Assembly: GCF_029894425.1 (NCBI RefSeq)
Contig: NZ_JARXYJ010000003.1
Span: 248,001 to 312,000 of the forward strand
Direction of reading: 5' to 3'
From: Streptomyces sp. SAI-127
Lineage (GTDB): Bacteria > Actinomycetota > Actinomycetes > Streptomycetales > Streptomycetaceae
Length of the DNA: 64,000 nt
Position numbers and translations under genes: made by a program. The notes beneath the pieces are model-generated. The model saw nothing but the letters and a program-made list of their open reading frames with translations, had not been told where the DNA came from and did no database searches. Shown here piece by piece: positions 5,753-41,604 of this stretch; the stretch's first letter is position 1; each line of letters begins with the position of its first letter.

Positions 5753-6372
5753 CGGCAGCCGAGGCTCCGGTGCGGTTGCGTCAGCTGGACCGTCGGCTGG
5801 TGGACGGCATGCGTGAGGATCTGGCGGATCTGTACGTGGACTCCCGTGCAACGGCGCCAGGTGACGCCTACCGCCGTCGCGGACGCCAGGACTTCCTGAA
5901 CCGTGTCACCACGGACATGGGGCGACCGGGATTCGCCATGGTGATCGCCGAGTCGGACGGCCTGATGGGATGCGCCTTCGGATTCCCGGTGCGGGGCGAC
6001 GGCTCGTGGTGGCTCGGTTTCGACGGAGTAATGCCGCGCAGCGTCGGACAACTTACGGTGTCCGGCAGGGCCTTCGCGTTCAGTGACATCCTGATCCGCC
6101 CCCACCCACAGGACCGGCGCCTGGCCCGTCGCGTGCAGGAGCGGCTGCTGACCGACCACGAGGCTTCGCTCGGCGCCCTCTTGGTGGACGGGGCCGATCA
6201 CGCTGCCCTCGCCGCGCTCCGCTCCTGGGGGTGGCTGGACGTCGGAGAGCTTCGCAGGCCACTGGGCGCCGCCACGTTCCGCGCGCTGGTGTTTCCCGCG
6301 GGGGAACGTACCGCGGCGAGTCTGGAGGGCCTTGTCACGATGCCGGCAGGCGGTGGTCCGGGTGGGCCCTGA
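5749..6372 (+). CDS. GNAT-like acetyltransferase-fold protein
   Basis: This 207-residue protein has the overall shape of a GNAT N-acetyltransferase: a strand with 'FAMVIAESDGLMGCAFGF', a strand 'AFAFSDILIRPH', then a helix starting 'DRRLARRVQERLL' at the position of the acetyl-CoA loop, and a last strand 'FRALVFP'. The canonical Q/R-x-x-G-x-G/A loop is weak (PQDRRLARR), so catalytic activity is uncertain. It overlaps the STAS gene by 4 bases and the following GAF-ANTAR gene by about 20-40 bases, so these three are one operon. Confidence 0.65.
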   Translation: MTAAEAPVRLRQLDRRLVDGMREDLADLYVDSRATAPGDAYRRRGRQDFLNRVTTDMGRPGFAMVIAESDGLMGCAFGFPVRGDGSWWLGFDGVMPRSVGQLTVSGRAFAFSDILIRPHPQDRRLARRVQERLLTDHEASLGALLVDGADHAALAALRSWGWLDVGELRRPLGAATFRALVFPAGERTAASLEGLVTMPAGGGPGGP

Positions 6373-7108
6373 GAACCGGTCGGCGCGGATTCGGATGCTG
6401 GTGGCGGAGCAGGCGGCACGACGCGGTGCCCGAGTCGGTGTGGTGGATGTGTGCACCGCGGCCGTGGCCGCGCTGCCGGTCGGCGGGGCCGGGGTGTCGG
6501 CGATGTCCAGGACCGCGCCGAGCCATCCGCTGTGCAGCACCGACAGCGTCAGCGAGCAACTGGAAGAGCTCCAGCTCACGCTGGGCGAGGGGCCCTGCGT
6601 GGACGCCTTCCGGCACGGCTCGGCCGTGCTGGCACCCGATCTGCTCACCCGTGACCTGCAGGACCGCTGGATGGTGTTTGCCGAGGCGGCCCTGGAAGCC
6701 GGGGCACGCGCGGTGTTCGCGCTCCCTCTGCAGATGGGGGCGATCAGCCCGGGAGTCCTGGATTTATACGCCCGCGTTCCGGTCCGGTTGAACGCGGAGG
6801 AACTGGCGGACGCGCTGGCGTTCGCCGATCTCGCGACGCTGGTGCTGCTCGATGCGCGAATCGACGAGACGGGCGAGCCGAGTGATGCCCCCGTCGAGGA
6901 CCTGGGTGCGTACCGGGCGGAGATCGACCAGGCCAGCGGGATGATCACGGTCCAGCTCGGCGTCGACATCGAAGAAGCCTTCGTCCGGCTCCGCTCCCAC
7001 GCCTACGCGCAGGGACGCCGACTGGGCGACGTGGCCGCGGACGTGGTGGCCCGTCGCCTTCATTTCCCACCGGACGCGGAGCCGGACCAGGCCGGGGAGG
7101 ACCCTTGA
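6332..7108 (+). CDS. GAF and ANTAR domain regulator (first copy)
   Basis: The protein has an N-terminal GAF-type sensor (about residues 25-165, with 'LTLGEGPCVDAFRHG') and a C-terminal ANTAR domain (about 190-250, 'EIDQASGMITVQLGVDIEEAF'). GAF domains bind small molecules and ANTAR binds RNA hairpins to prevent termination. The start is uncertain: TTG 6332 has a GGAGGG only 2 bases away, while GTG 6353 or 6362 are alternatives. All overlap the upstream GNAT-like gene. A second GAF-ANTAR gene follows after 80 bases. Confidence 0.8.
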   Translation: MSRCRQAVVRVGPENRSARIRMLVAEQAARRGARVGVVDVCTAAVAALPVGGAGVSAMSRTAPSHPLCSTDSVSEQLEELQLTLGEGPCVDAFRHGSAVLAPDLLTRDLQDRWMVFAEAALEAGARAVFALPLQMGAISPGVLDLYARVPVRLNAEELADALAFADLATLVLLDARIDETGEPSDAPVEDLGAYRAEIDQASGMITVQLGVDIEEAFVRLRSHAYAQGRRLGDVAADVVARRLHFPPDAEPDQAGEDP

Positions 7109-7188
7109 CGCATTGGTGCCGATCGAGGAACGCGCCTGTACTTCCCGCCCCTTCAGGCCGGGACTAGTCTCAATCGAGGGTGCCCACA

Positions 7189-7905
7189 ATGGATGAACAG
7201 CTCCTGTCCAAGACTTTCGTCGAGCTGGCCGACAACCTGGTCGCCGACTTCGACCTCATCGACTTCCTGCGCCTGCTGACCGACCGCTGCGTCGGCATGC
7301 TCGACGCGAGCGCCGCCGGGGTGCTGCTCGCCGACCGGGACGGCAAACTCCGCGTCATGGCCGCCTCCGACGAACAGGTGCGTGTGCTGGAGCTCTTCCA
7401 GCTCCAGAACGACGAGGGCCCCTGCCTCACGTGTTTCCGCACCGGCGCACCGGTGATCGTCCCCGACCTGACCCGGGAGATCGACCGCTGGCCGCGCTTC
7501 GTCACGGCGGCTCACCGCGGGGGATTCGGCGCCGTCCAGGCCCTGCCCATGCGCCTGCGGGAGGAGACCGTGGGCGCCCTGAACCTCTTCCGGGCCGCGC
7601 CCGGCCCCTTCGACCCGCCCGCCACCCTCGTCGCCCAGGCGCTGGCCGACGTCGCCACCATCAGCCTGCTGCAACAACGCACCACCCAGCGCAGCACCGT
7701 GCTGAACGAACAGTTGCAGGCCGCCCTGAACAGCCGGGTACTGATCGAACAGGCCAAGGGGAAGCTCGCCGAACGCCAGGGCATCGACATGGAGCGGGCG
7801 TTCACCGCGCTGCGCGGCTACGCCCGCTCCCACAACCGTCGCCTGGCCGACGTGGCCCGCGCCTTCATCGACGACTCCGAACCCCTCGCCGGTCTAGGAG
7901 CCTGA
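7189..7905 (+). CDS. GAF and ANTAR domain regulator (second copy)
   Basis: This 238-residue protein has a GAF sensor (about residues 10-165, 'LQNDEGPCLTCFRTG') and an ANTAR domain (about 175-230, 'VLIEQAKGKLAERQGIDME'). It is the same architecture as the gene just upstream but clearly diverged, so the two may sense different signals. The ATG at 7189 is preferred over GTG 7180 because a CGAGG site lies about 10 bases before it. Its 3' end overlaps the convergent DUF1003 gene by 88 bases, so the two transcripts could pair. Confidence 0.82.
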   Translation: MDEQLLSKTFVELADNLVADFDLIDFLRLLTDRCVGMLDASAAGVLLADRDGKLRVMAASDEQVRVLELFQLQNDEGPCLTCFRTGAPVIVPDLTREIDRWPRFVTAAHRGGFGAVQALPMRLREETVGALNLFRAAPGPFDPPATLVAQALADVATISLLQQRTTQRSTVLNEQLQAALNSRVLIEQAKGKLAERQGIDMERAFTALRGYARSHNRRLADVARAFIDDSEPLAGLGA

Positions 7906-8309
7906 CCCGCTCCCCGATGGGGCCCCGTTGCTGCTCTGCGCAGCTCCGTGGTCATGAGGCGGATCGCTCGCGTCAGCTCGGTGTTGGTCATGAGCTCCAA
8001 CTCCTGCTCGACGAAATCGTGGTCGGCCTTTATCTGCTGGAAGGCCGCCTGCCGGTTCTGGTCGATCATGACAAACGTGGAGAGGAAGATCGCCTCCAGC
8101 GACACGACGAGCGTCAACGTGGGCCAGGCGCTGCTCTCGACCCAAAGCATCCAGACCGCGAACGCGACGGCGTGGACGTACACGAACGGCATCGAACCGG
8201 CGAACTCGGTGATGACGTCGGCGATCCGCAACTGGACATCCCCGGCACGGCTGTTGCGGTGTGCAACCAATGCGGGATGATGCATGACCCGGCTGTCCTG
8301 CTCGCTCAT
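7818..8309 (-). CDS. DUF1003 membrane protein
   Basis: This 163-residue protein has an N-terminal 'RIADVITEFAGSMPFVYVHAVAF', then two membrane segments (about residues 44-60 and 66-84) and the DUF1003 signature 'IFLSTFVMIDQNRQ', followed by an acidic helix and an Arg-rich tail. DUF1003 proteins are small two-helix membrane proteins of unknown role. The last part overlaps the convergent GAF-ANTAR gene by 88 bases, so the basic tail may be an extension beyond the domain. Confidence 0.8.
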   Translation of the reverse strand: MSEQDSRVMHHPALVAHRNSRAGDVQLRIADVITEFAGSMPFVYVHAVAFAVWMLWVESSAWPTLTLVVSLEAIFLSTFVMIDQNRQAAFQQIKADHDFVEQELELMTNTELTRAIRLMTTELRRAATGPHRGAGQAPRPARGSESSMKARATSARRRLWERA

Positions 8310-8382
8310 CGCGCCGCGCCGCGCTTCTCGCCTCTCGGGGCATCGCCGACCACGGGCTACAGCCGCCGCGCGTCCCTGGAGC

Positions 8383-8759
8383 CTAACCGCAAGCCTCCGC
8401 CATCAGCCGGTCGCGCAGGCGCGCACAGGTGCGGACGATCAACCGGGACACCTGCATCTGCCAGAGACTGAGCTGCGGGCCGATGCGGTTCTGCGTCATC
8501 GCGCAGAAGAACTGCGTGTAGCAGAAGAACCGCATACAGAGGATCCGCCGTTCGCGTTCGGGCAGGCCCGCAGCAGCGGGCGGAGCGCCTCACGGTTGAC
8601 GATCAGGCCGAAGCCGGGCTCCGTGCCACCGAGAGTGCCGGTCAGTGGACGGCTGTCCTCGGAGCGGCCGCGTACGGCGTCCAGGGCCTGCTCGGCGCTT
8701 GGTTCTGGGGTCCGTACGCGCACAGCGCGACGGGCCCGGCGTGTTTCTGTTCGCTTCAT
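8383..8759 (-). pseudogene. Remnant of SigB/F-type sigma factor (regions 3.2-4)
   Basis: From 8759 the frame gives 'LDAVRGR', then 'LTGTLGGTEPGFGLIV' and 'REALRPLLRA', matching the sequence before region 4 of SigB/F/G sigma factors. A frameshift near 8565 is needed to continue as 'LPERERRILCMRFF', then an unusual insertion before 'MTQNRIG' and the recognition helix 'LWQMQVSRLIVRT'. The insertion repeats a TTCTTCTGC sequence, so it looks like a short tandem duplication. The N-terminal two thirds are missing. The ATG at 8759 overlaps the stop of the gene upstream by 4 bases, so a chimeric peptide could still be made. Confidence 0.68.
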
Positions 8760-25605: not shown

Positions 25606-28119
25606 ATGAGCAAGGAGAGTGCCGGCGGCGGGAGCCGCCGTGGTGTGCGGGGTGGGCAGGTCGCGGTCGGTGGTGATGCCGCTGGTGCCGCGCTTGGGCC
25701 GAACGCGCGAGTGGTCAACCGCACCACGATCAACATCAATGTGCGGCCCGAGATGGGATGGCCGTTGCGGGTGGGGGCGGTGCCGCCGCTGGCGTCCTCG
25801 TTCCTGCCCCGCACTGCCCTGAGGGCACTTGTCGAGACGGCGCGTGATCCCGGCCAGGACGTGGAGCTCGGAGAGGCCACCGAAGCGGGACGGGTGCTGG
25901 CGGGCGAGGGCGGAGTCGGCAAGTCCCAGCTGGCTGTGTCCTACTACCTGCGCTCAAGTGCAGACTTGGCGGTGTGGACGACAGCAAAGGGTGGAATCGC
26001 CCGGCTGGTCGGCGACTTCGCCGAGACTGCCAGGCGCCTGCAGGCCCCCGGCGCGGAAGGGGAAAACGAAGAGGCTGATGCGCGGGCTCTGCTGGAGTGG
26101 CTGCGGGGCACCGAGCGCAGTTGGCTAGTGGTGATCGACGACGTCGACGACCTGGACGCGGTGCTGCCCGGGTGGCCCCACCCGCATCCGCGCGGCTGCG
26201 TGCTGGCCACCACCCGCCGGCGCAAAGCCCTCGGCGCCGGCCGCACCCGCATCGACGTCGGCGCCTTCACCGCCGCAGAGTCGGACCGTTACCTGCACGA
26301 ACGCGCCCCCGGCCTGCCCACACACCCCGGCGCCTGCGCGGAGCACGAGTGTCCGGCGGCGCCCATTGGGCAGTTGCTGGGATACCTCCCGCTAGCGCTG
26401 TCGCACGCCGCCGCCTACCTGCTCAACAACACCGACGTCAGCCCGGGTGCGTATGCGCGGATGCTGGCCGAGCCCGGGCGTGCGCTGGCCGAGGTCCTGC
26501 CCGCGGACGGTGCCGACGGCTACGGGCAGGCTGTCCACGCCACGATGCTGATCAACCTCAGCGCTGTCGAAGCCGCCGAGGACCGCCCCGGCCTGGCCCG
26601 CGCGGTCCTGAGTACCCTCGCCCTGCTGGATCCCAACGGCTCACCCCCCGCCTTGTGGACCCACCCCGTAGCCTTGACCGCCCTGACCGGACCGGGCCCA
26701 AGCTTGTGGCAGCGCCTTCGCCACCCAACCATCGCCCGCAACATGCCCGCACCCGTACCCGCGCTGCACGGGGCCACCGCCGCACAGGTCCGCGAGTGCC
26801 TGCGTCTGATGCACCGTTACAGCCTGATCACCTACACTGCCCCGGACCAGGCAGTGATCCGGATCCACGCCCTCACCGCGCGCGCTGCCCGCGACATCAC
26901 CCCCCACGAACAGGGCTACGCGCTCGCGCGCCGGACAGCCGACGCCCTCCTCGCCCTCTGGCCCCCTGTCGGGCGGGACCGGGCCCTGGAACAGGCCCTG
27001 CAGGACAACACCACTGCCGTGGACGACAACACCTCCCCAGTCCTCTACTGCCCAGATGCCCATCCGGCGCTGTACCAGGTCGGGGACCGCCTCGGTGAGG
27101 CCGGTCAGGACGCCGCCGCCCGCGACTACTTCCACACGCTTGCCGCCAGGACGTCCAGTTACTTGGGCCCGGACCACTCCAGCACCCTCCGCGCCCGGCA
27201 CAGCCACGCCAGGTGGCGGGGGGAGGCGGGAGATGCGCAGGGCGCCGCCGACACCCTCGCCGAACTGGTGCCGCACTACGTGCGGGTACTGGGCCCCGAC
27301 CACCGCGACACCCTTTCCACCCGGCGCAACCACGCCAGGTGGCGAGGGGAGACCGGGGATGCGCAAGGGGCCGCCGACACCTACGCCGAACTGGTGCCGC
27401 GTTACCTACGGGTGCTGGGACCGGACCACCCCGACACCCTCACCGTCCGGCACAACCTTGCCTACTGGCGGGGGGAGGCGGGGGATGCGCAGGGCGCCGC
27501 CGACACCCTCGCCGATCTAGTGCCGCACTACGTGCAGGTACTGGGCCCCGACCACCCCGACACCCTCACCACCCGGCACAGCCTCGGCCGGTGGCGGGGG
27601 GAGGCGGGGGATGCGCAGGGCGCCGCCGATACCCTCGCCGATCTGGTGCCGCACTTCCTGCGGGTACTGGGACCGGACCACCCCGACACCCTTTCCACCC
27701 GGCGCAACCACGCCAGGTGGCGGGGGGAGGCTGGGGATGCGCAGGGCGCCGCCGACACCCTCGCCGATCTGGTGCCGCACTACGTGCGGGTACTGGGACC
27801 GGACCACCCCGACACCCTTTCCACCCGGCGCAACCACGCCAGGTGGCGGGGGGAGGCTGGGGATGCGCAGGGCGCCGCCGACACCCTCGCCGATCTGGTG
27901 CCGCACTTCCTGCGAGTACTGGGCCCCGACCACCCCAGAACCCTCTCCACCCGGCACAGCCTCGGCCGGTGGCGGGGGGGAGGCTGGGGATGCGCAGGGC
28001 GCCGCCGATACCCTCGCCGAATTGGTGCCGCACTTCCTGCGAGTACTGGGCCCCGACCACCCCGACACGCTCCGCATTGTGAACGCTCTCGCCCGCTGGC
28101 AGGAGCGGGCGATGATTAG
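25606..28119 (+). CDS. STAND-type (NB-ARC-like) NTPase with TPR repeats, frameshifted at the 3' end
   Basis: The protein has a short motif region (residues 18-35), a P-loop NTPase domain with Walker A 'GEGGVGKS' (about 100-107), Walker B 'WLVVIDDVDD' (173-182) and 'VLATTRR' (199-205), a winged-helix-like region (about 380-450), and from residue 520 seven to eight TPR units of 42 residues beginning 'LGPDHPDTL'. This is the architecture of actinobacterial NB-ARC/TPR signal proteins; relatives include antiphage STAND sensors. There is no N-terminal effector domain, so the membrane protein upstream may serve as one. In unit 7 a G run has 7 instead of 6 bases, shifting the frame so the current product ends at 28119; without it the frame continues to 28138 with a proper last TPR. 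Confidence 0.82.
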   Translation: MSKESAGGGSRRGVRGGQVAVGGDAAGAALGPNARVVNRTTININVRPEMGWPLRVGAVPPLASSFLPRTALRALVETARDPGQDVELGEATEAGRVLAGEGGVGKSQLAVSYYLRSSADLAVWTTAKGGIARLVGDFAETARRLQAPGAEGENEEADARALLEWLRGTERSWLVVIDDVDDLDAVLPGWPHPHPRGCVLATTRRRKALGAGRTRIDVGAFTAAESDRYLHERAPGLPTHPGACAEHECPAAPIGQLLGYLPLALSHAAAYLLNNTDVSPGAYARMLAEPGRALAEVLPADGADGYGQAVHATMLINLSAVEAAEDRPGLARAVLSTLALLDPNGSPPALWTHPVALTALTGPGPSLWQRLRHPTIARNMPAPVPALHGATAAQVRECLRLMHRYSLITYTAPDQAVIRIHALTARAARDITPHEQGYALARRTADALLALWPPVGRDRALEQALQDNTTAVDDNTSPVLYCPDAHPALYQVGDRLGEAGQDAAARDYFHTLAARTSSYLGPDHSSTLRARHSHARWRGEAGDAQGAADTLAELVPHYVRVLGPDHRDTLSTRRNHARWRGETGDAQGAADTYAELVPRYLRVLGPDHPDTLTVRHNLAYWRGEAGDAQGAADTLADLVPHYVQVLGPDHPDTLTTRHSLGRWRGEAGDAQGAADTLADLVPHFLRVLGPDHPDTLSTRRNHARWRGEAGDAQGAADTLADLVPHYVRVLGPDHPDTLSTRRNHARWRGEAGDAQGAADTLADLVPHFLRVLGPDHPRTLSTRHSLGRWRGGGWGCAGRRRYPRRIGAALPASTGPRPPRHAPHCERSRPLAGAGDD
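27163..28046 (+). repeat. Tandem 126-bp repeats encoding TPR units
   Basis: Unit starts are at 27163, 27289, 27415, 27541, 27667, 27793 and 27919, with an eighth partial unit from 28046. Units 4-7 are almost identical in DNA, pointing to recent duplication or gene conversion. Each contains 'ARWRGEAGDAQGAADTLA' or a close variant. Confidence 0.92.
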
Positions 28120-33520: not shown

Positions 33521-33784
33521 GTGTACGGCCACGACCACGACGACCCTGACCCCGGCCCGCTGCCGTGGCAGACGTACGCCGCACTCGTAGGCGGGCCGCT
33601 GGACGGGCTGCTGCTGGACATCACGGGATAGCTGCCGGAAGAAGTCGACGACGGCGCTGCCCTGCCCACCGAAGTGTCGCGGTGGCCTGGCGGCCGCGCC
33701 CTGTACGACCCGCGCCCCGGCGAGCCGCGCACAGCGGGCCCGGGCGTGAGCTGCCGCCTGTACCACTCCGGCGACACCCCCTGA
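33521..33784 (+). pseudogene. Small conserved Streptomyces protein with in-frame stop
   Basis: The frame reads 'LPWQTYAALVGGPLDGLLLD', then 'ITG', TAG, and continues in the same frame with 'LPEEVDDGAALPTEV', 'GGRALYDPRPGEP' to a TGA at 33782. The uninterrupted form looks like a common small Streptomyces protein of unknown function in which Trp (TGG) follows ITG. One base change would restore it. The start is uncertain (GTG 33521). Confidence 0.5.
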
Positions 33785-33918
33785 CCACAACCCCGACCAC
33801 GGCAGGTCAGCGGGCTGCTCATCCGTCACCGTCGCCTTTGCCTGCGAGAGGGCTGCGCAGACGTTGCGTGAAGGGGGCCCCGAGCTGGTGATGCCGGAAC
33901 CGGGTGAACGAGACCGGG

Positions 33919-34241: not shown

Positions 34242-34359
34242 CACCGACCGGCGCGGTGCGCACTACATGACGGTGGTGCGCGCACCCGGTGCGGGGTGCG
34301 CACTGCGAGCCTGGCCCAAGGCGGCGGCCCTCAGCGTCCCCAGGGCGTCCGCCACGTCG
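34242..34359. repeat. 118-bp direct repeat, copy 2
   Basis: Copy of 28986-29103, same orientation. On the minus strand it covers the 3' end of the intact 34263-34535 gene and its downstream flank. Confidence 0.88.
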
Positions 34360-34535
34360 CCGCTGATCCTGGCGCGAACGCTGGGTGAGAGATCATTCAG
34401 CGCCAGACTGATTGCCAGTGCCCCCTGCGAGAAGCGGAGGGTGACCGAGAGGTTCGCGCCTACGTGGTGCCAGACTGCGAGTGTTGCAGGCCGCCGGTAC
34501 CGGTCCCACTTGAATGCCCCAGACGCCGACCCCAT
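34263..34535 (-). CDS. Hypothetical protein with duplicated C-terminal tail
   Basis: The 90-residue frame has a beta-type middle ('ANLSVTLRFSQGALAISLAL'), then 'LSPSVRARISGDVADALGTL' and 'RAAALGQARSAHPAPGART'. The tail is shared with the remnant at 29007-29130. I do not recognise the family. The exact start is uncertain because no good ribosome site precedes 34535. It is divergent from the radical SAM operon and shares its upstream region. Confidence 0.5.
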   Translation of the reverse strand: MGSASGAFKWDRYRRPATLAVWHHVGANLSVTLRFSQGALAISLALNDLSPSVRARISGDVADALGTLRAAALGQARSAHPAPGARTTVM

Positions 34536-34608
34536 CGCTCAAGATCGATCTCACCGATAGGTGCTGTACCAATCTTCTCCATGCCGATGAGGCATTCGGG
34601 CTACCTCG

Positions 34609-34680
34609 GTTGGCGGGTGCCAGACGCAGTTTGGGCCACGTCAGTTGGCGGGTGCCAGATGCAGGTGTCAGGCTGCCAAC
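34609..34680. promoter_or_regulatory. Operator-like direct repeats upstream of the radical SAM operon
   Basis: Two near-identical 21-base repeats, 34609-34629 and 34644-34664, share GTTGGCGGGTGCCAGA and each contains the dyad TGGC-N4-GCCA. A third related site in inverted orientation (GTCAGGCTGCCAAC) lies at 34667-34680. Start-to-start spacing of the direct copies is 35 bases. They sit 53-124 bases before the ATG at 34733, a good position for a regulator. Confidence 0.55.
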
Positions 34681-34732
34681 TACCCGCCCTACGCAGCCGG
34701 AACAGCGGGGCCGCCTCGACCACGGAGTAGCG

Positions 34733-35422
34733 ATGGGTGCCAACGACCTCCTCATTCTTCGCTCAGCGGATCTGGATTCCAAACTGACCGCGCTCGGCGA
34801 CAAGCTCGTCTCGGACCGGACCTTCCGCGAGCTCTACGTCAACGACCCAGCTCGGGTCATCCTCAAGTCGGTCTTCCCTGACCAGAGCGTGCCGGCCGCC
34901 GAGGTAAACCGCGGCAACCGTCTCCTCTATGGCTTGCTGAGCAACCAGCGGTTCACCGCATGGGCTCAGCAGTACTCCACCGAACTCGTCCAGAAAGCAA
35001 ACGAGGTCACCCGGGAGAGCAACCCGGAGAAGGCGCTCCGCGAGTACCTGGCGGTAACCGACCGCGAGAAGATCCACCGCGAGGTGGCCACGGCTGTGGC
35101 GGAGTTCGCCGACGCGGAGCTCATCGCCGCCCTGACATGGCGCCCCGATCCGGATTCCATCGGCGTGGCGCGAGTGGCCGACGTCGCGGTCGACATCGAG
35201 GTGCTCATCTACGCGGTGGTGGCCGCCGCGGCCTTTGCGGTGGCCTTCGCCGCGGTGTTCCTGGCGGCACCGGTGACGGAGCGCGAGGTAGGCGTGAGCC
35301 GGATCGACGTGCAGCGGGTGGCGGCACAGCTGACGGAACGGCTGACCGAACGCGGCCAGGAGCTGCGGGACGCTGGCGTACTCGTCGACTTCAGTCGCCG
35401 CAATTCCGGCTACACCCGCTGA
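34733..35422 (+). CDS. 229-residue protein coupled to radical SAM enzyme; possible RiPP precursor or partner
   Basis: The protein has a helical N-terminal part with 'FRELYVNDPARVILKSVFP', which resembles leader-type 'F-x-x-L-x-x-DP' motifs of nitrile-hydratase-like RiPP leaders, then a long charged helical region, a membrane-type helix ('AVVAAAAFAVAFAAVFLAA', about 165-184), and a C-terminal helix ending 'VLVDFSRRNSGYTR'. I do not recognise the family. It ends 4 bases before the radical SAM gene, so the two are translationally coupled. It may be a large precursor, a recognition partner or a membrane adaptor; the short Tyr/Arg-ended tail is where I would look for modification. All of this is inference. 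Confidence 0.6.
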   Translation: MGANDLLILRSADLDSKLTALGDKLVSDRTFRELYVNDPARVILKSVFPDQSVPAAEVNRGNRLLYGLLSNQRFTAWAQQYSTELVQKANEVTRESNPEKALREYLAVTDREKIHREVATAVAEFADAELIAALTWRPDPDSIGVARVADVAVDIEVLIYAVVAAAAFAVAFAAVFLAAPVTEREVGVSRIDVQRVAAQLTERLTERGQELRDAGVLVDFSRRNSGYTR

Positions 35423-35426
35423 TCGC

Positions 35427-36500
35427 ATGGCACTCGAACCTATTCCCCGGCCTCGCGTGCTGTCCGTGATGCCCACGTTCCAGTGCACGGCGGCATGTAC
35501 CCACTGCGGCACGATGTCGACGCCCAGCGTGAAGACGACGCTCGACACCGACGTCATGATGAAGACGATCGCGGAGGCCGCCGACAACGGGTTCGGCCTG
35601 GTGGTCTTCACTGGTGGGGAGCCGACCCTGGTCGGCGAACGGCTGTTGGCGGCGATCGGCCTGGCCAAGAGCCTCGGCCTGCTGACGCGGGTGGTCACCA
35701 ACTGCCATTGGGCTACGGATGACGAGGAGTCCGACCGGTACGTCTCGGTGCTCCGTGAGCACGGACTCGACGAGATCAACTTCAGTACCGGGGACCAGCA
35801 CGCCCGCTTCGTCCCGCTGGAGAACGTGCTGCGGGCGGTGCGGGCGGCAGTGCACCACTCCTACGCTCCAGCGGTGATGGTGGAGACGGTCGCTACCCGC
35901 GCGGTCACGAAGGAGAGCATCGAGGCCCACCCGCACTACCAGGAGACCCGGGAGCTGTATCCGGGTAAACCGGTGAAGATCAACGAGAGTCCTTGGATGC
36001 CCCTCAAGCCCAAGCGGATCACGGACTATCCACCCGGCATGGCCATCGATCGCACCAATCTGGCCTCTTGCACAGGCTGCGACAGCATTCTCCAGACCAC
36101 CACCCTGCAGGCGGATGGGACCTTCGGATCGTGCTGTGGGCTCGGCATGCGACTGATTCCCGAACTGCAATTGGGGAAGGCCGGAGAGACGCCGCTCGCT
36201 GCAGCCGTCAAGGACGGCGAGGAGGACCTGCTCAAGCGCTGGATCCGTGCCGAAGGCCCCGAGCGAATCCTTGCCTGGGCTGCCGAGCATGACCCGGCCA
36301 TCGAGTGGGAGGGGATGTACGCCCACCGGTGCCAGGCATGCCTGCGGCTGTACCAGGACCCCGCAGTACGCAGTGTTGTACGCGAGCACTATCAGGAAAA
36401 GGTTCCCGACGTCCTCTTCACGGAGTGGTTGCTGCACGAGTACCGGCCGGAATTCGCGGACTCCCCGACGGAAGCCCCTGCGGAGCCCATGGCGCCCTGA
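35427..36500 (+). CDS. Radical SAM enzyme with additional Cys clusters
   Basis: The 357-residue protein has the radical SAM motif as C-x3-C-x2-C ('FQCTAACTHCG', about residues 18-28), 'VVFTGGEPTL' for SAM binding, and 'EINFSTGDQHARFVP'. The C-terminal third has two further Cys groups, 'SCTGCDSI' with 'GSCCGLGM' and 'HRCQACLRLY', that could bind auxiliary Fe-S clusters like SPASM or twitch domains. Such enzymes modify peptides, among other roles. It starts 4 bases after the 229-residue partner and is followed by a hairpin, so the operon has just two genes. The substrate is unknown. Confidence 0.88.
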   Translation: MALEPIPRPRVLSVMPTFQCTAACTHCGTMSTPSVKTTLDTDVMMKTIAEAADNGFGLVVFTGGEPTLVGERLLAAIGLAKSLGLLTRVVTNCHWATDDEESDRYVSVLREHGLDEINFSTGDQHARFVPLENVLRAVRAAVHHSYAPAVMVETVATRAVTKESIEAHPHYQETRELYPGKPVKINESPWMPLKPKRITDYPPGMAIDRTNLASCTGCDSILQTTTLQADGTFGSCCGLGMRLIPELQLGKAGETPLAAAVKDGEEDLLKRWIRAEGPERILAWAAEHDPAIEWEGMYAHRCQACLRLYQDPAVRSVVREHYQEKVPDVLFTEWLLHEYRPEFADSPTEAPAEPMAP

Positions 36501-36824
36501 CGACGCGGGCTCAGCTGGTCCTCAGGGGCCGACGAGCTTCTGGACGGCTGAGCGGCCGTCCAGTGTTCCCCGAGCCGGAGTATCTCCGATCTCCTGTCCC
36601 GTTCGTGCAGGTCACCTCGGTTCGAGGACCCCTCCTGTGTCTCTCAGCCTGCCTGCCGACGACCCCACACCGGAATCAGCGGTCACACTCCATCAAGCCG
36701 CGTCACCAACGTGTCAGAACAGCACACCTAGGGCCTACGTCGACGCATGGACCGCGTCCCGCATGTTGCGGTGGCTTTGTTCACGAGAACCGGTTCTGGC
36801 ACGACTTCCGTGAAGCGGTCACGA
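36501..36824. other. Gap between operon terminator and DUF4259 gene
   Basis: Apart from the hairpin at 36540-36563 I see no gene or RNA here. Short frames near 36740-36800 look like old IS debris but cannot be assigned. Confidence 0.35.
36540..36563 (+). terminator. Hairpin terminator of the radical SAM operon
   Basis: Arms CTGGACGGC (36540-36548) and GCCGTCCAG (36555-36563) pair exactly around TGAGCG, 39 bases after the stop codon. Confidence 0.7.
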
Positions 36825-37241
36825 TCAGTGATCAATGGGTGTCTCGAGTGCTTGGAGGATCTGTCGTACTTCCTGGCGCCACTGCTCGGCGTCGCCGCTG
36901 TCCACCCAGCCGGTTGCCATTTCTGATCCGTCCTGGAGAACCCGGTCCAGTGCGAGTCTCGCCGACGCGCGAAGGGAGGCTGGCAGTTCGGGCAGCGGTT
37001 CCCTGGGGCCGTCGTCCGGGTCAATCACGATGGGACTATCCGGGAGGGTGCTCGCGACGAGAGCGCCGGCGGCAACAGCTTCGGCCCCGTCTCCGCCATC
37101 GACGCGTTCTCCCGAGTCGGTGACTCGCTGGAATGCCCGCTCCAGCACGTCAATGACCTGCTGGTGGGTGAGTCCCTCAAGTTCATCGACGAAGTCTGCG
37201 GCGAGGTCGCTGTCGAACGGGCCGGTTCCCCACGTTCCCAT
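36825..37241 (-). CDS. DUF4259 protein
   Basis: The 138-residue protein begins 'MGTWGTGPFDSDLAADFVDE', the signature of DUF4259, and continues as acidic helices with 'AVAAGALVAS' and 'ARLALDRVLQDGSEMATGWV'. The family is widespread in actinobacteria and often found as an orphan; it has been linked by context to immunity-type genes, but no function is known. It is convergent with the radical SAM operon, and the ISL3 element lies directly upstream. Confidence 0.88.
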   Translation of the reverse strand: MGTWGTGPFDSDLAADFVDELEGLTHQQVIDVLERAFQRVTDSGERVDGGDGAEAVAAGALVASTLPDSPIVIDPDDGPREPLPELPASLRASARLALDRVLQDGSEMATGWVDSGDAEQWRQEVRQILQALETPIDH

Positions 37242-37275: not shown

Positions 37276-38975
37276 CATGGTTCCAGGAGCCACTGACATC
37301 GGTCACGGGGCGAGGAGGACCCGCTTGCGGAGGAGTGCGAAGCCGGCGCGACCGAACATCTGGCGCTTGAGCATCTTGATCCTGTTGACGTGTCCTTCGA
37401 CGACGCCGGAGTTCCAGGGCAGGGTCAGGTCGGCGATGACGGCTTCGCGGTCGCGGTCGATGCCGGCCGCGAGAGTGTGGAGGCTGGGGAGGTCGTCCTG
37501 GCGGATGGCGTCGAGCCACTGCGGAAGTCGTTCCCCTTGCCGCTCGGTGAGCATCTGGGCGAAGGACCGGACGTGACCGGTCAGGGCTTCGAGTTCAGGG
37601 CAGTTGGCCAGGACGGCCTTGAGCCGGAGCTGTTCGATCTCGGTCAGCGTCTCGGGTCGGCTGAGGATCCATCTCGTCGCCACGCGGGGTGCCGGCGGCT
37701 GCGCGGTGACCGGCCGTGGCGAGGTGCGCTTCTCTCGCAGGTAGGCGCTGACCCGGCCGTAGCTGCCTCGATAGCCCAAGGGAACGATCTCCTCCCAGAG
37801 CTTCCAGGCGTTGCTGCAGCCCTCGTCCCAGCGTTCGTCCAGGTAGGGCTTGTACTCGTCGAGGACGGAGAACCTGTTGTGCTGCCACTGGCCGCGAAAG
37901 AGGTCTTCCGGCTTCGCAGCGTCGGCGAGGCTCTTGACGGTGCGGTGGGTCATGTTCAGCTGGCGCCCGATGGAACGGCGGCTGTGATCGGCTTCCAGCA
38001 GCGCGTGGACCATGGCGTGCCTGGCTCGGACGCGGTTGGCGAACCGCTCGCTCCGCCATGGAGAGTCCGCCTTCTCCTCGGGCGGCGCCGGTTCGTCGGC
38101 CTTCCCCTCGCGATCGGGGACCAGGACGCGAAGGCACTGGCGGTGGCGGGCGGCAGCCCGCTCAGCGGCCTCCCCGAGGTTGTGCCACAAGTGCCAGCGG
38201 TCGGCGACCTGCGTCGCCTGGGGTGCCCCGGCCGTGGCGCCTTCCGCGAAGAACGGGGCGCGATCCCGGCAGACGATTTCGATCCCGGGACGCTTCTCCA
38301 GCCATGCGGCCAGGCTGGACGCCTCAAGGTCAGGCAGCAGATCCACCGGCCGACGGGACTCGACGTCGACGAGCACCGTGCCGTAGACCCGTCCTTTGCG
38401 TGTGGCGTACTCATCAACACCAACCACCCGCGGGGCCGGGACTTCGGGTTCGGGCAATGCATCGAGCAGCCGCAACACCGCGCTGCGGCTGATGGACACT
38501 CCGAAGGCCCGTGCCATCCGGGCGCCAGCCCGGCCGGCGAGGGCGAGACCCACCGCGGCAAGAGTCGACCGCAACCGCTCCGTCCACCTGCTGTGCCGCC
38601 GCGTCAGTCCCGGCATCTGCTCGGCGAACGTCCGCCGAGCACACGAAGCCTCTGGGCAGAAGAAACGCCGAACTCGCAGTTGTAGGACCACGAGACGTCC
38701 CCCACTGGGCACGTCCGCAGGAAACCGCAGGTAAGAGCTGTGCACCCGGGTCGACTCGCTCCCACAGTCCGGGCATGCCGCCCCTACCGCCGTACTGCAG
38801 ACGTCGATGCATATCGCCTCGTGGCTCACGTCCAGCGACAGCACCGACACGTCCGCGATGGACGGGAACAGCAGGCCCTCCAGGCGGGGCGATGTCTCTT
38901 CCACGACGCCGCACTGTCGACCACACCAAGATCGGCCCTGGTCATTTTCAGGCAACTTCCCGGAGCCTGATCGGA
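37276..38975. mobile_element. ISL3-family insertion sequence
   Basis: The element contains one apparently intact transposase gene on the minus strand. Possible ends are near 37276 (GGTTCCAGGAGCC) and near 38975, whose complement begins GGCTCCGGGAAG; they match only in part, so the limits are approximate. It sits next to an IS21 element. Confidence 0.6.
37303..38904 (-). CDS. ISL3-family transposase
   Basis: The 533-residue protein has a zinc-ribbon start with 'ACPDCGSESTRVHSSYLR' and 'FFCPEASC', an HTH-containing middle, 'RVVGVDEYATRKGRVYGTV' with the first catalytic Asp, 'ADRWHLWHNL' around the second, and 'WNSGVVEGHVNRIKMLKR' with the last catalytic Glu. This is a full-length ISL3 DDE transposase. 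GTG 38904 is preferred to the longer frame. No frameshift is seen, so the element may be active. Confidence 0.9.
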   Translation of the reverse strand: MEETSPRLEGLLFPSIADVSVLSLDVSHEAICIDVCSTAVGAACPDCGSESTRVHSSYLRFPADVPSGGRLVVLQLRVRRFFCPEASCARRTFAEQMPGLTRRHSRWTERLRSTLAAVGLALAGRAGARMARAFGVSISRSAVLRLLDALPEPEVPAPRVVGVDEYATRKGRVYGTVLVDVESRRPVDLLPDLEASSLAAWLEKRPGIEIVCRDRAPFFAEGATAGAPQATQVADRWHLWHNLGEAAERAAARHRQCLRVLVPDREGKADEPAPPEEKADSPWRSERFANRVRARHAMVHALLEADHSRRSIGRQLNMTHRTVKSLADAAKPEDLFRGQWQHNRFSVLDEYKPYLDERWDEGCSNAWKLWEEIVPLGYRGSYGRVSAYLREKRTSPRPVTAQPPAPRVATRWILSRPETLTEIEQLRLKAVLANCPELEALTGHVRSFAQMLTERQGERLPQWLDAIRQDDLPSLHTLAAGIDRDREAVIADLTLPWNSGVVEGHVNRIKMLKRQMFGRAGFALLRKRVLLAP

Positions 38976-39157
38976 GCGTCAGCCGTCACTCAGCGTGCGC
39001 GCATCACGGAAAGTGAGCCAGAACCTGGGTAGGGGAGGCGTTTGTCGTCCGGTACCGGAGGCGGCTTCGTGTCGTGGAGGGTGATGTTGCCCAGTTTTGA
39101 CGGCACTTGGAGCCTTGCAGTGGGACGATCGGTGTGCTTCTCCCGCTGGGGGTTCGA

Positions 39158-40812
39158 ATGCACATATCGACGAGCAAGGTCGAGCTGTACGCGGCGATCC
39201 GCCGTGACCACCGTGCCGGTCTGTCGGTGCGTGCTCTGGAGCGCAAGTACGGGGTGACCTGGCGGACGATCCGCAAGGCCCTGGACTCGAATTGGCCCGA
39301 GCCCCGCAAGAAGCAGGCGCCGCGTCCGACCCGGCTTGACCCGTACAAGCCGGTGATCGACGGGATGCTGCGGGCGGACCTCGACGCGCCGCCGAAGCAG
39401 AAACACACGGTGAAGAGGATTTTCGACCGGCTGCTCGACGAGCACGCGGCGGACGGGATCTCCTACCAGATGGTCCGCGCCTACGTCGCGGTGCGGCGCA
39501 AGGAGGTCCGGTGGGAGGCCGGCCGCGGGCCGGAGGAGATGTTCGTCCCGCAGTCCCATATGCCGGGGGACGAGGCGGAGGTCGACTTCGGTGATGTCCA
39601 CATCGTGCTGGCGGGGGTGCCCACTCGCTGCTATCTGTTCTCGCTGCGGCTGTCGTACTCCGGCAAGGCGGTGCACCGGGTGTCGGCTTCCTGCGGCCAG
39701 GAGGCGTTCTTCGAAGGCCATGTCCACGCGCTGTCCGTGCTGGGCGGGGTGCCCCGCGGCAAGGTGCGCTACGACAATCTGAAAGCGGCGGTCGCCCAGG
39801 TCCTGGGCTTCTCCCGGCAGCGCACGGAACCGGAGCGGTGGATCGCTTTCCGTTCGCACTGGGGGATCGAGAGTTTCTACTGCCGTCCGGGCATCGAGGG
39901 CGCCCACGAGAAGGGCGGGGTGGAGGGCCAGATCGGCTATTTCCGCCGCAACCACTTCGTGCCGGTCCCTGAGGTCGCCACCCTCGCCGAGCTGAACGAG
40001 ATGGTCGACCGGTGGGATCTTGAGCACGAGGGCCGGCGCATCCGTTCCCGTCCCCGAACGATCGGCGAGTACTTCGCCGTCGAACGGCCGCAGTTGAAAC
40101 CGCTGCCCGTCGAGCCGTTCGAGACGGGCCGCTGGTTCACCCCACGGGTCGACCGCTACGGACAGATCACGGTCCGCACCAACCGGTACTCGGTGCCGGT
40201 CCGGCTGATCGGCAAGACGCTCCGGGTGCTGCTGCACGCCTCCGAGCTGATCGTCTTCGACGACGGCCGGGAAGTGGCTCGCCACGAAAGGCTGAGCACG
40301 CAGGGCGGCTCGTGCCTGGTGCTCGATCACTACCTGGAGGCCCTGGTCCGCAAGCCAGGCGCCTTCCCCGGGGCAACAGCCCTGGAACAGGCCCGCTCGG
40401 CCGGCCGGTTCACGCCGGTCCATGACGGCTGGTGGGACGCGGCCCGCGCGGCCCACGGCGACAAGGAAGGCACCAAGGCCCTGATCGAGGTGTTGTTGCT
40501 GGCCCGGCACATGAGCCACGAGCACCTGGTCGCCGGGCTCGCGGTCGCGCTGCGGGCCGGGGCGCTGACCGCGGACGCGGTCGCGCTGGAGGCCCGCAAG
40601 ATCGCCGACGGCGACCTGCCGGACCAGCCGATGCCCTCACCACCGCCAGAGCCCGCAGCGGCCGGGCCGACGCGGGCGACCGTCACCTTTCTCGCCGACT
40701 GGCGGCTGTCCCATCTGCCCCCGACACCCGGCCGCTGCCCTCGGTTGCCGCCTATGACCAGCTGCTGCGACGGCGCGGCGGGAGTGCTCCGAGCACGGGA
40801 GAAGCGACATGA
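39158..40812 (+). CDS. istA: IS21-family transposase IstA (frameshifted near its end)
   Basis: From ATG 39158 the protein has an HTH ('GLSVRALERKYGVTWRTIRK'), then a DDE core with 'GDEAEVDFGDV', 'VRYDNLKAAV' and 'GAHEKGGVEGQIGYFRR', then the Mu-C-like domain 'YSVPVRLIGKTLRVLL'. The sequence is full length until about 40723, where a C run shifts the frame; after it the expected end is 'LPSVAAYDQLLRRRGG' in another frame, with its stop at 40812 overlapping the istB ATG by 4 bases. Without correction the frame runs to 41158 with a nonsense tail. Confidence 0.85.
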
Positions 40813-41604
40813 ACGCCAAACGCAACCGCGGGCTGACCGAGGAAGCCCGCGACCACCGCCATCGACCAGGCGTGCCGGATGCTGCGGCTGCCCACCATCC
40901 GCGGCCAGTTCCCCGACCTCGCTGAGGCGGCGTCCCGCGAGCAGATGTCCTACCGGGGCTTTCTGGCGGAACTGCTGCTGTCCGAGTGCGACGACCGGGC
41001 CCGCCGGCGCTCGGAGCGGCGCATCAAGGCCGCAGGGTTCCCGCGCGAGAAGTCACTGCGGGCCTTCGACTACGACGCGATCCCCAACATCGACGCCGCG
41101 ACCATCAACACCCTCGCCACCTGCGAATGGGTCTGCAAGGGCCACCCCCTCTGCCTGATCGGCGACTCGGGCACGGGCAAGTCCCATCTGCTCATCGCGC
41201 TGGGGACCGAGGCCGCGATGAAGGGATACCGGGTGAAGTACGTCCTGGCGACCAAGCTGGTCAACGAGCTGGTCGAGGCCGCCGACGAGAAGGTCCTGGC
41301 CAAGACCATCGCCCGCTACGGACGCGTCGATCTTTTGTGCATCGACGAACTCGGCTACATGGAGCTCGACCGCCGGGGCGCCGAACTCCTCTTCCAGGTC
41401 TTAACGGAGCGTGAGGAAAAGAATTCTGTCGCGATCGCTTCGAACGAGTCGTTCGGAGGGCGGACGAAGACGTTCACCGATCCCAGGCTCTGCGCGGCCA
41501 TCGTCGACCGCATCACCTTCGGCGGCAACATCATCGAGACCGGCACCGACTCCTACCGCCTCGCCCACACCAAAGCTCAGGCCGAACGCGCCAACGCCGG
41601 CTGA
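40809..41604 (+). CDS. istB: IS21-family helper ATPase IstB (frameshifted near its start)
   Basis: The main frame has Walker A 'GDSGTGKSHLL', Walker B 'VDLLCIDELGYM' and 'SNESFGG', as expected for the IstB AAA ATPase that helps target choice. ATG 40809 overlaps the istA stop. After 'KRNRGLTEEA' an extra C near 40845 breaks the frame; the remaining frame starts at 40879 ('MLRLPTIRGQFPDLAEAA'). It is about 265 residues when joined. Both istA and istB break in C runs, so sequencing errors are possible. Confidence 0.85.

Follow-up and report, generated by a model that had tools for sequence, protein, structure and literature searches.

The window considered here is a stretch of 64,000 nucleotides from Streptomyces sp. 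SAI-127 (contig NZ_JARXYJ010000003.1, 364,934 bases, positions 248,001 to 312,000; genome of 10.7 Mb in three contigs), in which two adjacent genes on the + strand form a compact cassette (coordinates below are window positions). The upstream gene (34733-35422, +, with TGA at 35420-35422) encodes a 229-residue protein, hereafter the partner, which is a probable substrate. The downstream gene (35427-36500, +) encodes a 357-residue radical S-adenosylmethionine (SAM) enzyme with the fold of EpeE (also named YydG), the enzyme of the Bacillus subtilis epipeptide EpeX (YydF). Four bases separate the partner stop from the enzyme start, and the two-gene layout, coordinates and gap given in an earlier note on this DNA all stand. 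The pair is real, conserved and portable, and its members are most likely enzyme and substrate, the novel feature being a protein-sized, tripartite probable substrate for EpeE-type radical SAM modification. No description of this pair was found in the titles, abstract openings and passages of the open-licence literature that was searched, with subscription papers outside the search.

The two genes occur together far beyond chance. An enzyme profile of 51 sequences was searched against a species-genome collection, and the best 80 of 114 matches gave 79 loci. A set of 34 loci (L003-L035 and L065) was defined by a near-full-length enzyme at 43-61% identity, and in all 34 a partner homologue lies immediately upstream of the enzyme; the proposal that the pair is conserved as a pair is thus borne out. 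The set spans nine phyla (Actinomycetota, Pseudomonadota, Bacillota, Ignavibacteriota, Acidobacteriota, Cyanobacteriota, Bacteroidota, Planctomycetota and Sumerlaeota). It excludes L037 (51% identity over residues 158-339 only, upstream partner not found), L077-L079 (46-47%, best segment residues 8-134, upstream proteins of another type), L058 (38%, broken) and loci at or below 36%. With leave-one-out profiles, the partners of 24 loci stood out from 12,181 open reading frames (ORFs) with E values no worse than 4e-29, and the four most divergent (L032, L022, L008, L016), held out jointly, gave E 8e-7 to 4e-5; the partners of the remaining six loci have near-copies already in the profile. Every match better than 1e-4 adjoins the enzyme or, in L020, a second partner copy. 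The distance from partner stop to enzyme start was within 30 bases in 29 of the 34 loci measured, which comprise 33 of the set and the Thermus plasmid locus L096 (L065 gave no start), with starts guessed by script. Furthermore, two of the 120 listed enzyme homologues (of 682) exceed 450 residues (P0078, 570 residues; P0110, 565 residues), and both are partner-enzyme fusions that carry the partner N-terminal part (profile E 6e-59 and 2.5e-33, respectively). For enzymes below 40% identity, the partner hidden Markov model gave no clear homologue; marginal matches (E 0.0016-0.38) adjoin the enzyme in L062, L067, L054 and L074, and others lie in L072 and L036. No third gene recurs around the relatives (each Pfam family matches at most two of 69 neighbour ORFs), and the same Pfam scan gave no recurrent peptidase or ATP-binding cassette (ABC) exporter.

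The fold and cysteines of the enzyme support its assignment to a peptide-modifying type of radical SAM protein, which the earlier note had suggested. A Pfam scan (E up to 1) returned solely Radical_SAM (2e-11) and Fer4_12, with no SPASM domain found, and the best NCBIfam model was that of the YydG peptide epimerase (TIGR04078), below its threshold. EpeE was the top structural match over nearly the full length, at 16% identity and with a lead of 8.5 Z units over the second-ranked entry. The C-x3-C-x2-C motif and additional later cysteines, both read correctly in the earlier note, are C20-x3-C24-x2-C27 (35484-35507, +), which is the radical SAM cluster motif, and C218, C236-C237 (36132-36137, +) and C302-x2-C305 (36330-36341, +). 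C237 aligns with the hydrogen-donor Cys223 of EpeE (numbering deduced from the chain), which EpeE requires to complete epimerisation; according to a review (PMC8326336), the Cys223 mutant of EpeE stalls or breaks its peptide. C218, C236, C302 and C305 probably hold a second iron-sulfur cluster. In an 86-row alignment, made up of the loci and seven enzyme proteins (P0002 and six of the 120 listed homologues), C20, C24, C27, C236 and C237 are present in 86 of 86 rows, C302 and C305 in 85 and C218 in 84; two YydG rows without a Cys in the C218 column have one in the neighbouring column. The rows left out (L001, L002, L014, L037, L039, L058, L063, L078, L079, L083 and L085-L087) were the window itself, near-copies, fragments and split reading frames.

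Proteusins and their PoyD-type epimerases (e.g., for polytheonamide and landornamide) resemble the present system in a large leader-bearing precursor and in the alternating-residue segments of some relatives (Thermus, Collinsella and Ruminococcus). The review PMC8326336 describes proteusin epimerases as single-cluster enzymes that carry a C-terminal recognition element for ribosomally synthesised and post-translationally modified peptides (RiPPs) and lack significant homology to EpeE; the window enzyme differs from them in being EpeE-like by fold and cysteines, and the relation of its partner to NHLP leaders is sub-threshold. A viperin-kind antiviral module making a modified nucleotide is very improbable. 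The PADLOC prokaryotic viperin models that speak for it match weakly (best 7.4e-10), and the NCBIfam prokaryotic viperin model scores 30.3 bits, under its curated cut-off of 180.

The partner has a tripartite architecture. Residues ~11-140 (34763-35152, +) form a conserved helical N-terminal domain, modelled by AlphaFold with a predicted local distance difference test score (pLDDT) of 76-92 in blocks of ten, which is probably a recognition or leader domain. A middle segment (residues ~147-187; 35171-35293, +) contains VAVDIE..IYAV and an Ala/Val-rich run, is modelled with low confidence and is probably the site of modification. It is followed by a conserved C-terminal helix (residues 190-213; 35300-35371, +; pLDDT 73-91 in blocks of ten) and a tail ending in SGYTR (residues 215-229; 35375-35419, +), which is found in near relatives only. 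Across the family the middle, Ala/Val-rich in the window copy, is replaced by different sequences, and in 16 of 31 members of the broad family it consists of repeats or other non-hydrophobic sequence. Classes of the middle segment were assigned by eye, and the tree was a quick one in which 11 of 33 inner branches are starred. The hydrophobic run of the window copy reaches a 19-residue Kyte-Doolittle maximum of 2.62 from residue 157. Residues 148-177 are modelled as helical, with a confidence of 44-56 per block of ten across residues 141-190; because of this low confidence the membrane helix of the earlier note is not established, and that proposal holds as far as a hydrophobic segment in a large protein that is probably a substrate.

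Stronger conservation of the tail than of the rest of the partner had been named beforehand as a check, and the comparison with 17 homologues does not support it: identity to the window partner reaches 0.71 in residues 149-162 and 0.59 in the N-terminal domain, whereas residues 215-229 have 0.55 and the six final positions 0.53. Since the SGYTR-type tail is lost in distant members and absent from both fusions, the middle segment is the likelier target. The window partner has no cysteines, as is the case for 16 of 19 listed close partners. This Cys-free partner, and the lack of a SPASM match in the Pfam scan of the enzyme, speak against a sactipeptide or SPASM maturase system. A Pfam scan of the partner gave no match above cut-off, and its best NCBIfam model was TIGR04509 (NHLP-related RiPP peptide; E 0.0012, 18.8 bits against a cut-off of 34). 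The NHLP-like motif reported earlier therefore corresponds to a weak match, under the cut-off: only 3 of 31 family members match TIGR04509 at E up to 0.05, the window partner being the best of them, and hhalign of the partner profile with two Streptomyces NHLP-related proteins gave a probability of 5-7%. An NHLP link, as far as these sequence comparisons suggest one, is weak.

The partner is also found beside a different enzyme. Partner-family matches occur in 8 of 392 Streptomyces genomes, three with the adjacent EpeE-like enzyme and five without it. In these five (L111-L115), no EpeE-like enzyme was found within the 13-14 kb around the partner, and tblastn placed next to the partner, in five of five, a gene for a protein of up to 496 residues with an HxD...H pattern (and TPR repeats in L113). 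We take this protein to be oxygenase-like from the pattern, which is invariant in six aligned sequences, and from general knowledge; Pfam and Protein Data Bank searches returned TPR and sub-threshold matches alone. A different radical SAM gene also lies nearby in L114. Seven loci of Duganella-type and Methylocapsa genomes (L015, L023, L024, L027, L028, L029 and L034) have both enzymes, with the oxygenase-like gene placed directly after that of the radical SAM enzyme. Several partners beside oxygenase-like proteins carry GT-type repeats. A partner found widely without its enzyme had been named beforehand as evidence against the pair; such an occurrence in five of eight Streptomyces genomes, with the oxygenase-like gene instead, weakens a one-enzyme-one-partner view and strengthens that of the partner as substrate. 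The same scaffold with interchangeable enzymes behaves like a substrate, and enzyme swapping thus points to the partner in this role. Conversely, it is quite improbable that the partner is an accessory, anchor or substrate-presenting subunit, with another molecule as the true substrate: its conserved, folded N-terminal domain, the two fusions that keep this domain and lose the C-terminal tail, and a hydrophobic segment that could be a membrane anchor would all suit such a role, but the replaceable middle, the unrelated oxygenase-like enzyme beside the same partner family and the lack of a recurrent third gene count against it.

The TVG pathway (TvgA/TvgB/TvgC), which makes poly-cyclopropylglycine, is the nearest precedent found for a partner with both a radical SAM and an oxygenase-like enzyme. 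In its cluster, the precursor gene is accompanied by those of a radical SAM enzyme and a dioxygenase, and TvgB forms cyclopropylglycine on repeated Val (PMC9062424). The likeness lies in the repeat precursor, radical SAM enzyme and adjacent dioxygenase, as in the Duganella-type relatives; the window partner differs in having no TVGG repeat. This resemblance bears on the main rival explanation, in which the partner is the substrate and the EpeE-fold enzyme performs other radical chemistry on the middle segment (e.g., cyclopropane or carbon-carbon bond formation on Val/Ile, or cross-linking via a conserved Tyr). Radical SAM enzymes catalyse many reactions, the match to EpeE is one of fold and cysteines at 16% identity, and the order of partner, radical SAM and oxygenase-like genes in Duganella recalls the TvgB cluster. 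Other chemistry is nevertheless unlikely, as the EpeE cysteine set is kept, including C237 in every aligned row, and the structural match to EpeE stands well clear of the next entry.

More distant enzymes (26-41% identity) follow a comparable plan, and their partners are not clearly detected by the profile. On plasmid pTA14 of Thermus aquaticus (L096), the partner gene comes first; its product has NxN-type repeats and a twin-arginine start of RRKF type that looks lipoprotein-like. It is followed by the enzyme, an SdpI-type protein (PF13630, 3.7e-15) and a methyltransferase. In Bacteroidota, the gene directly after the enzyme encodes a protein of 263-306 residues whose start looks lipoprotein-like by eye in 12 of the 17 loci examined (L040, L041, L043, L044, L045, L047, L049, L051, L052, L054, L055 and L057), within a downstream-gene survey that covered 31 loci and left out L048 among others; nine of these twelve proteins have an internal 19-residue hydrophobic stretch at 2.4 or above. 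In the three viral contigs examined (L082, L084 and L086), the enzyme gene is overlapped by one for a 351-residue protein that has a start resembling a twin-arginine translocation (Tat) signal and, internally, a run rich in Ala and Val; the TAT_signal match of the L084 protein (E 0.0068) is under cut-off. Around the enzyme region of L084 (about 5926-8579), the gene on the upstream side looks phage-tail-like by eye, and the protein encoded downstream weakly matches bacterial PH domains. A twin-arginine stretch is also seen by eye at the start of the closer-family partners L020 and L065, and the window partner has neither a twin-arginine nor a lipoprotein-like start. Because of these starts, some lineages may plausibly export the substrate whole. 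In Ruminococcus (L074) and Collinsella (L077-L079), proteins with NANA-type repeats are encoded upstream of distant EpeE-like enzymes, that of L077 with Pfam DUF5969 at its C-terminus.

The SDP toxin precursor SdpC of B. subtilis has roughly 200 residues and an internal hydrophobic segment. Its likeness in size and hydrophobicity to the partner, together with the SdpI-type gene that closely follows the enzyme in the Thermus plasmid relative, raises the question of whether the product is an SDP-like, bacteriocin-like membrane peptide excised from the central part of the precursor by steps that include epimerisation. This explanation concerns the function of the product and is compatible with the favoured epimerisation reading. 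It is also in keeping with the action of epimerised EpeX on membranes reported in PMC8326336. We regard it as rather unlikely, since the SdpC match over partner residues 129-204 is very weak and not significant (E 0.39), and no SdpI-like or processing gene recurs at other loci in the Pfam scan of neighbours, which included no SdpAB-directed search.

The two-gene cassette also looks mobile and horizontally moving. Both genes with little flank (34437-36771) are shared with a plasmid of Streptomyces canus NBC_01585, at 98.1% identity over 2336 bp, and this is the only long DNA block common to the window and the 41-kb plasmid stretch compared. Two shorter matches of 218 and 105 bases fall at window positions 33584-33799 and 34291-34394; the first of these pieces sits on the opposite side of the cassette in the plasmid, a sign of rearrangement. 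Differences from the plasmid number 1, 2 and 10 at the first, second and third codon positions of the enzyme gene (mostly third) and 1, 0 and 2 in the partner gene (few). The enzyme family is rare in Streptomyces, with three close matches (the window included) and one distant match in 392 genomes.

Of the flanking elements described earlier, the upstream repeats were recovered as two tandem direct 35-bp copies, 86% alike (34595-34664, +), ahead of the partner gene. The proposed terminator corresponds to a GC-rich hairpin at about 36540-36563 (+), ~40 bases 3' of the enzyme gene; it remains a weak claim because the hairpin has no T-run and a fold z of -1.1, and because the single + strand site of a terminator scan (36759-36771) lies ~260 bases beyond the enzyme gene. 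Both strands together have two terminator-like sites, where shuffled sequence has 0.8 on average (sd 0.9). A DUF4259 protein (36825-37241, -) is encoded directly downstream of the cassette, an ISL3-type transposase gene (37303-38955, -) adjoins it and an IS21-type IstA/IstB-like pair (39107-41604, +) lies near it. Elsewhere in the window (25606-28119), a large protein carries tandem TPR repeats that appear near-identical by eye and give rise to long overlapping spurious ORFs.

The pairing, the fold and cysteine set of the enzyme, the tripartite partner and the swapping of enzymes are established by these comparisons; from them we infer that the partner is the substrate, its middle segment the site and epimerisation the reaction. 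In the proposed mechanism, the partner would be a protein-sized precursor whose helical domain (~11-140) is recognised by the enzyme, and whose exchangeable middle of ~40 residues and C-terminal helix complete the precursor. A 5'-deoxyadenosyl radical generated at the C20/C24/C27 cluster would remove the alpha hydrogen from residues of the middle segment, and Cys237, which corresponds to Cys223 of EpeE, would donate a hydrogen from the other face to yield D-residues, supported by a second cluster on C218/C236/C302/C305. The product may be a protein or an excised segment with altered backbone geometry and, in the least certain step, is perhaps membrane-active or membrane-inserted. Several observations weigh against this: the low identity to EpeE leaves a match of fold and cysteines, the TIGR04078 score (56.7 bits) is far below the family cut-off of 300, a 229-residue tripartite partner takes the place of the roughly 50-residue EpeX/YydF peptide, and alternation in the middle segment of the window's own partner is not significant. 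Gene content differs as well: two Macrococcus YydG loci have a short YydF/EpeX-type precursor together with peptidase and ABC genes, whereas around relatives of the window enzyme no third gene recurs. On balance, we judge it slightly more probable than its negation that an EpeE-type enzyme epimerises residues in the middle segment of its partner, as a mobile enzyme-substrate cassette.

Should the partner be the substrate, the cassette would represent a widely scattered two-gene route to D-residues, or another radical modification, in a protein-sized encoded scaffold, and one accompanied by no recurrent exporter or protease gene. The EpeE reaction would be extended from a short B. subtilis killing peptide to uncharacterised proteins of at least nine phyla. 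The proposal is directly testable, because two genes suffice and the product of one has a confident model that comes near a solved enzyme, and the natural swapping of middle segments and enzymes provides ready constructs for determining substrate rules. More tentatively, and as a possibility we would not yet call likely, EpeE-type enzymes may be the constant half of cross-phylum cassettes that alter the stereochemistry of interchangeable internal segments in protein-sized substrates, some of them exported with Tat- or lipoprotein-like starts, on a scaffold served by interchangeable radical SAM and oxygenase-like enzymes. If this is true, D-residue segments would occur inside whole bacterial proteins, beyond short peptide natural products.
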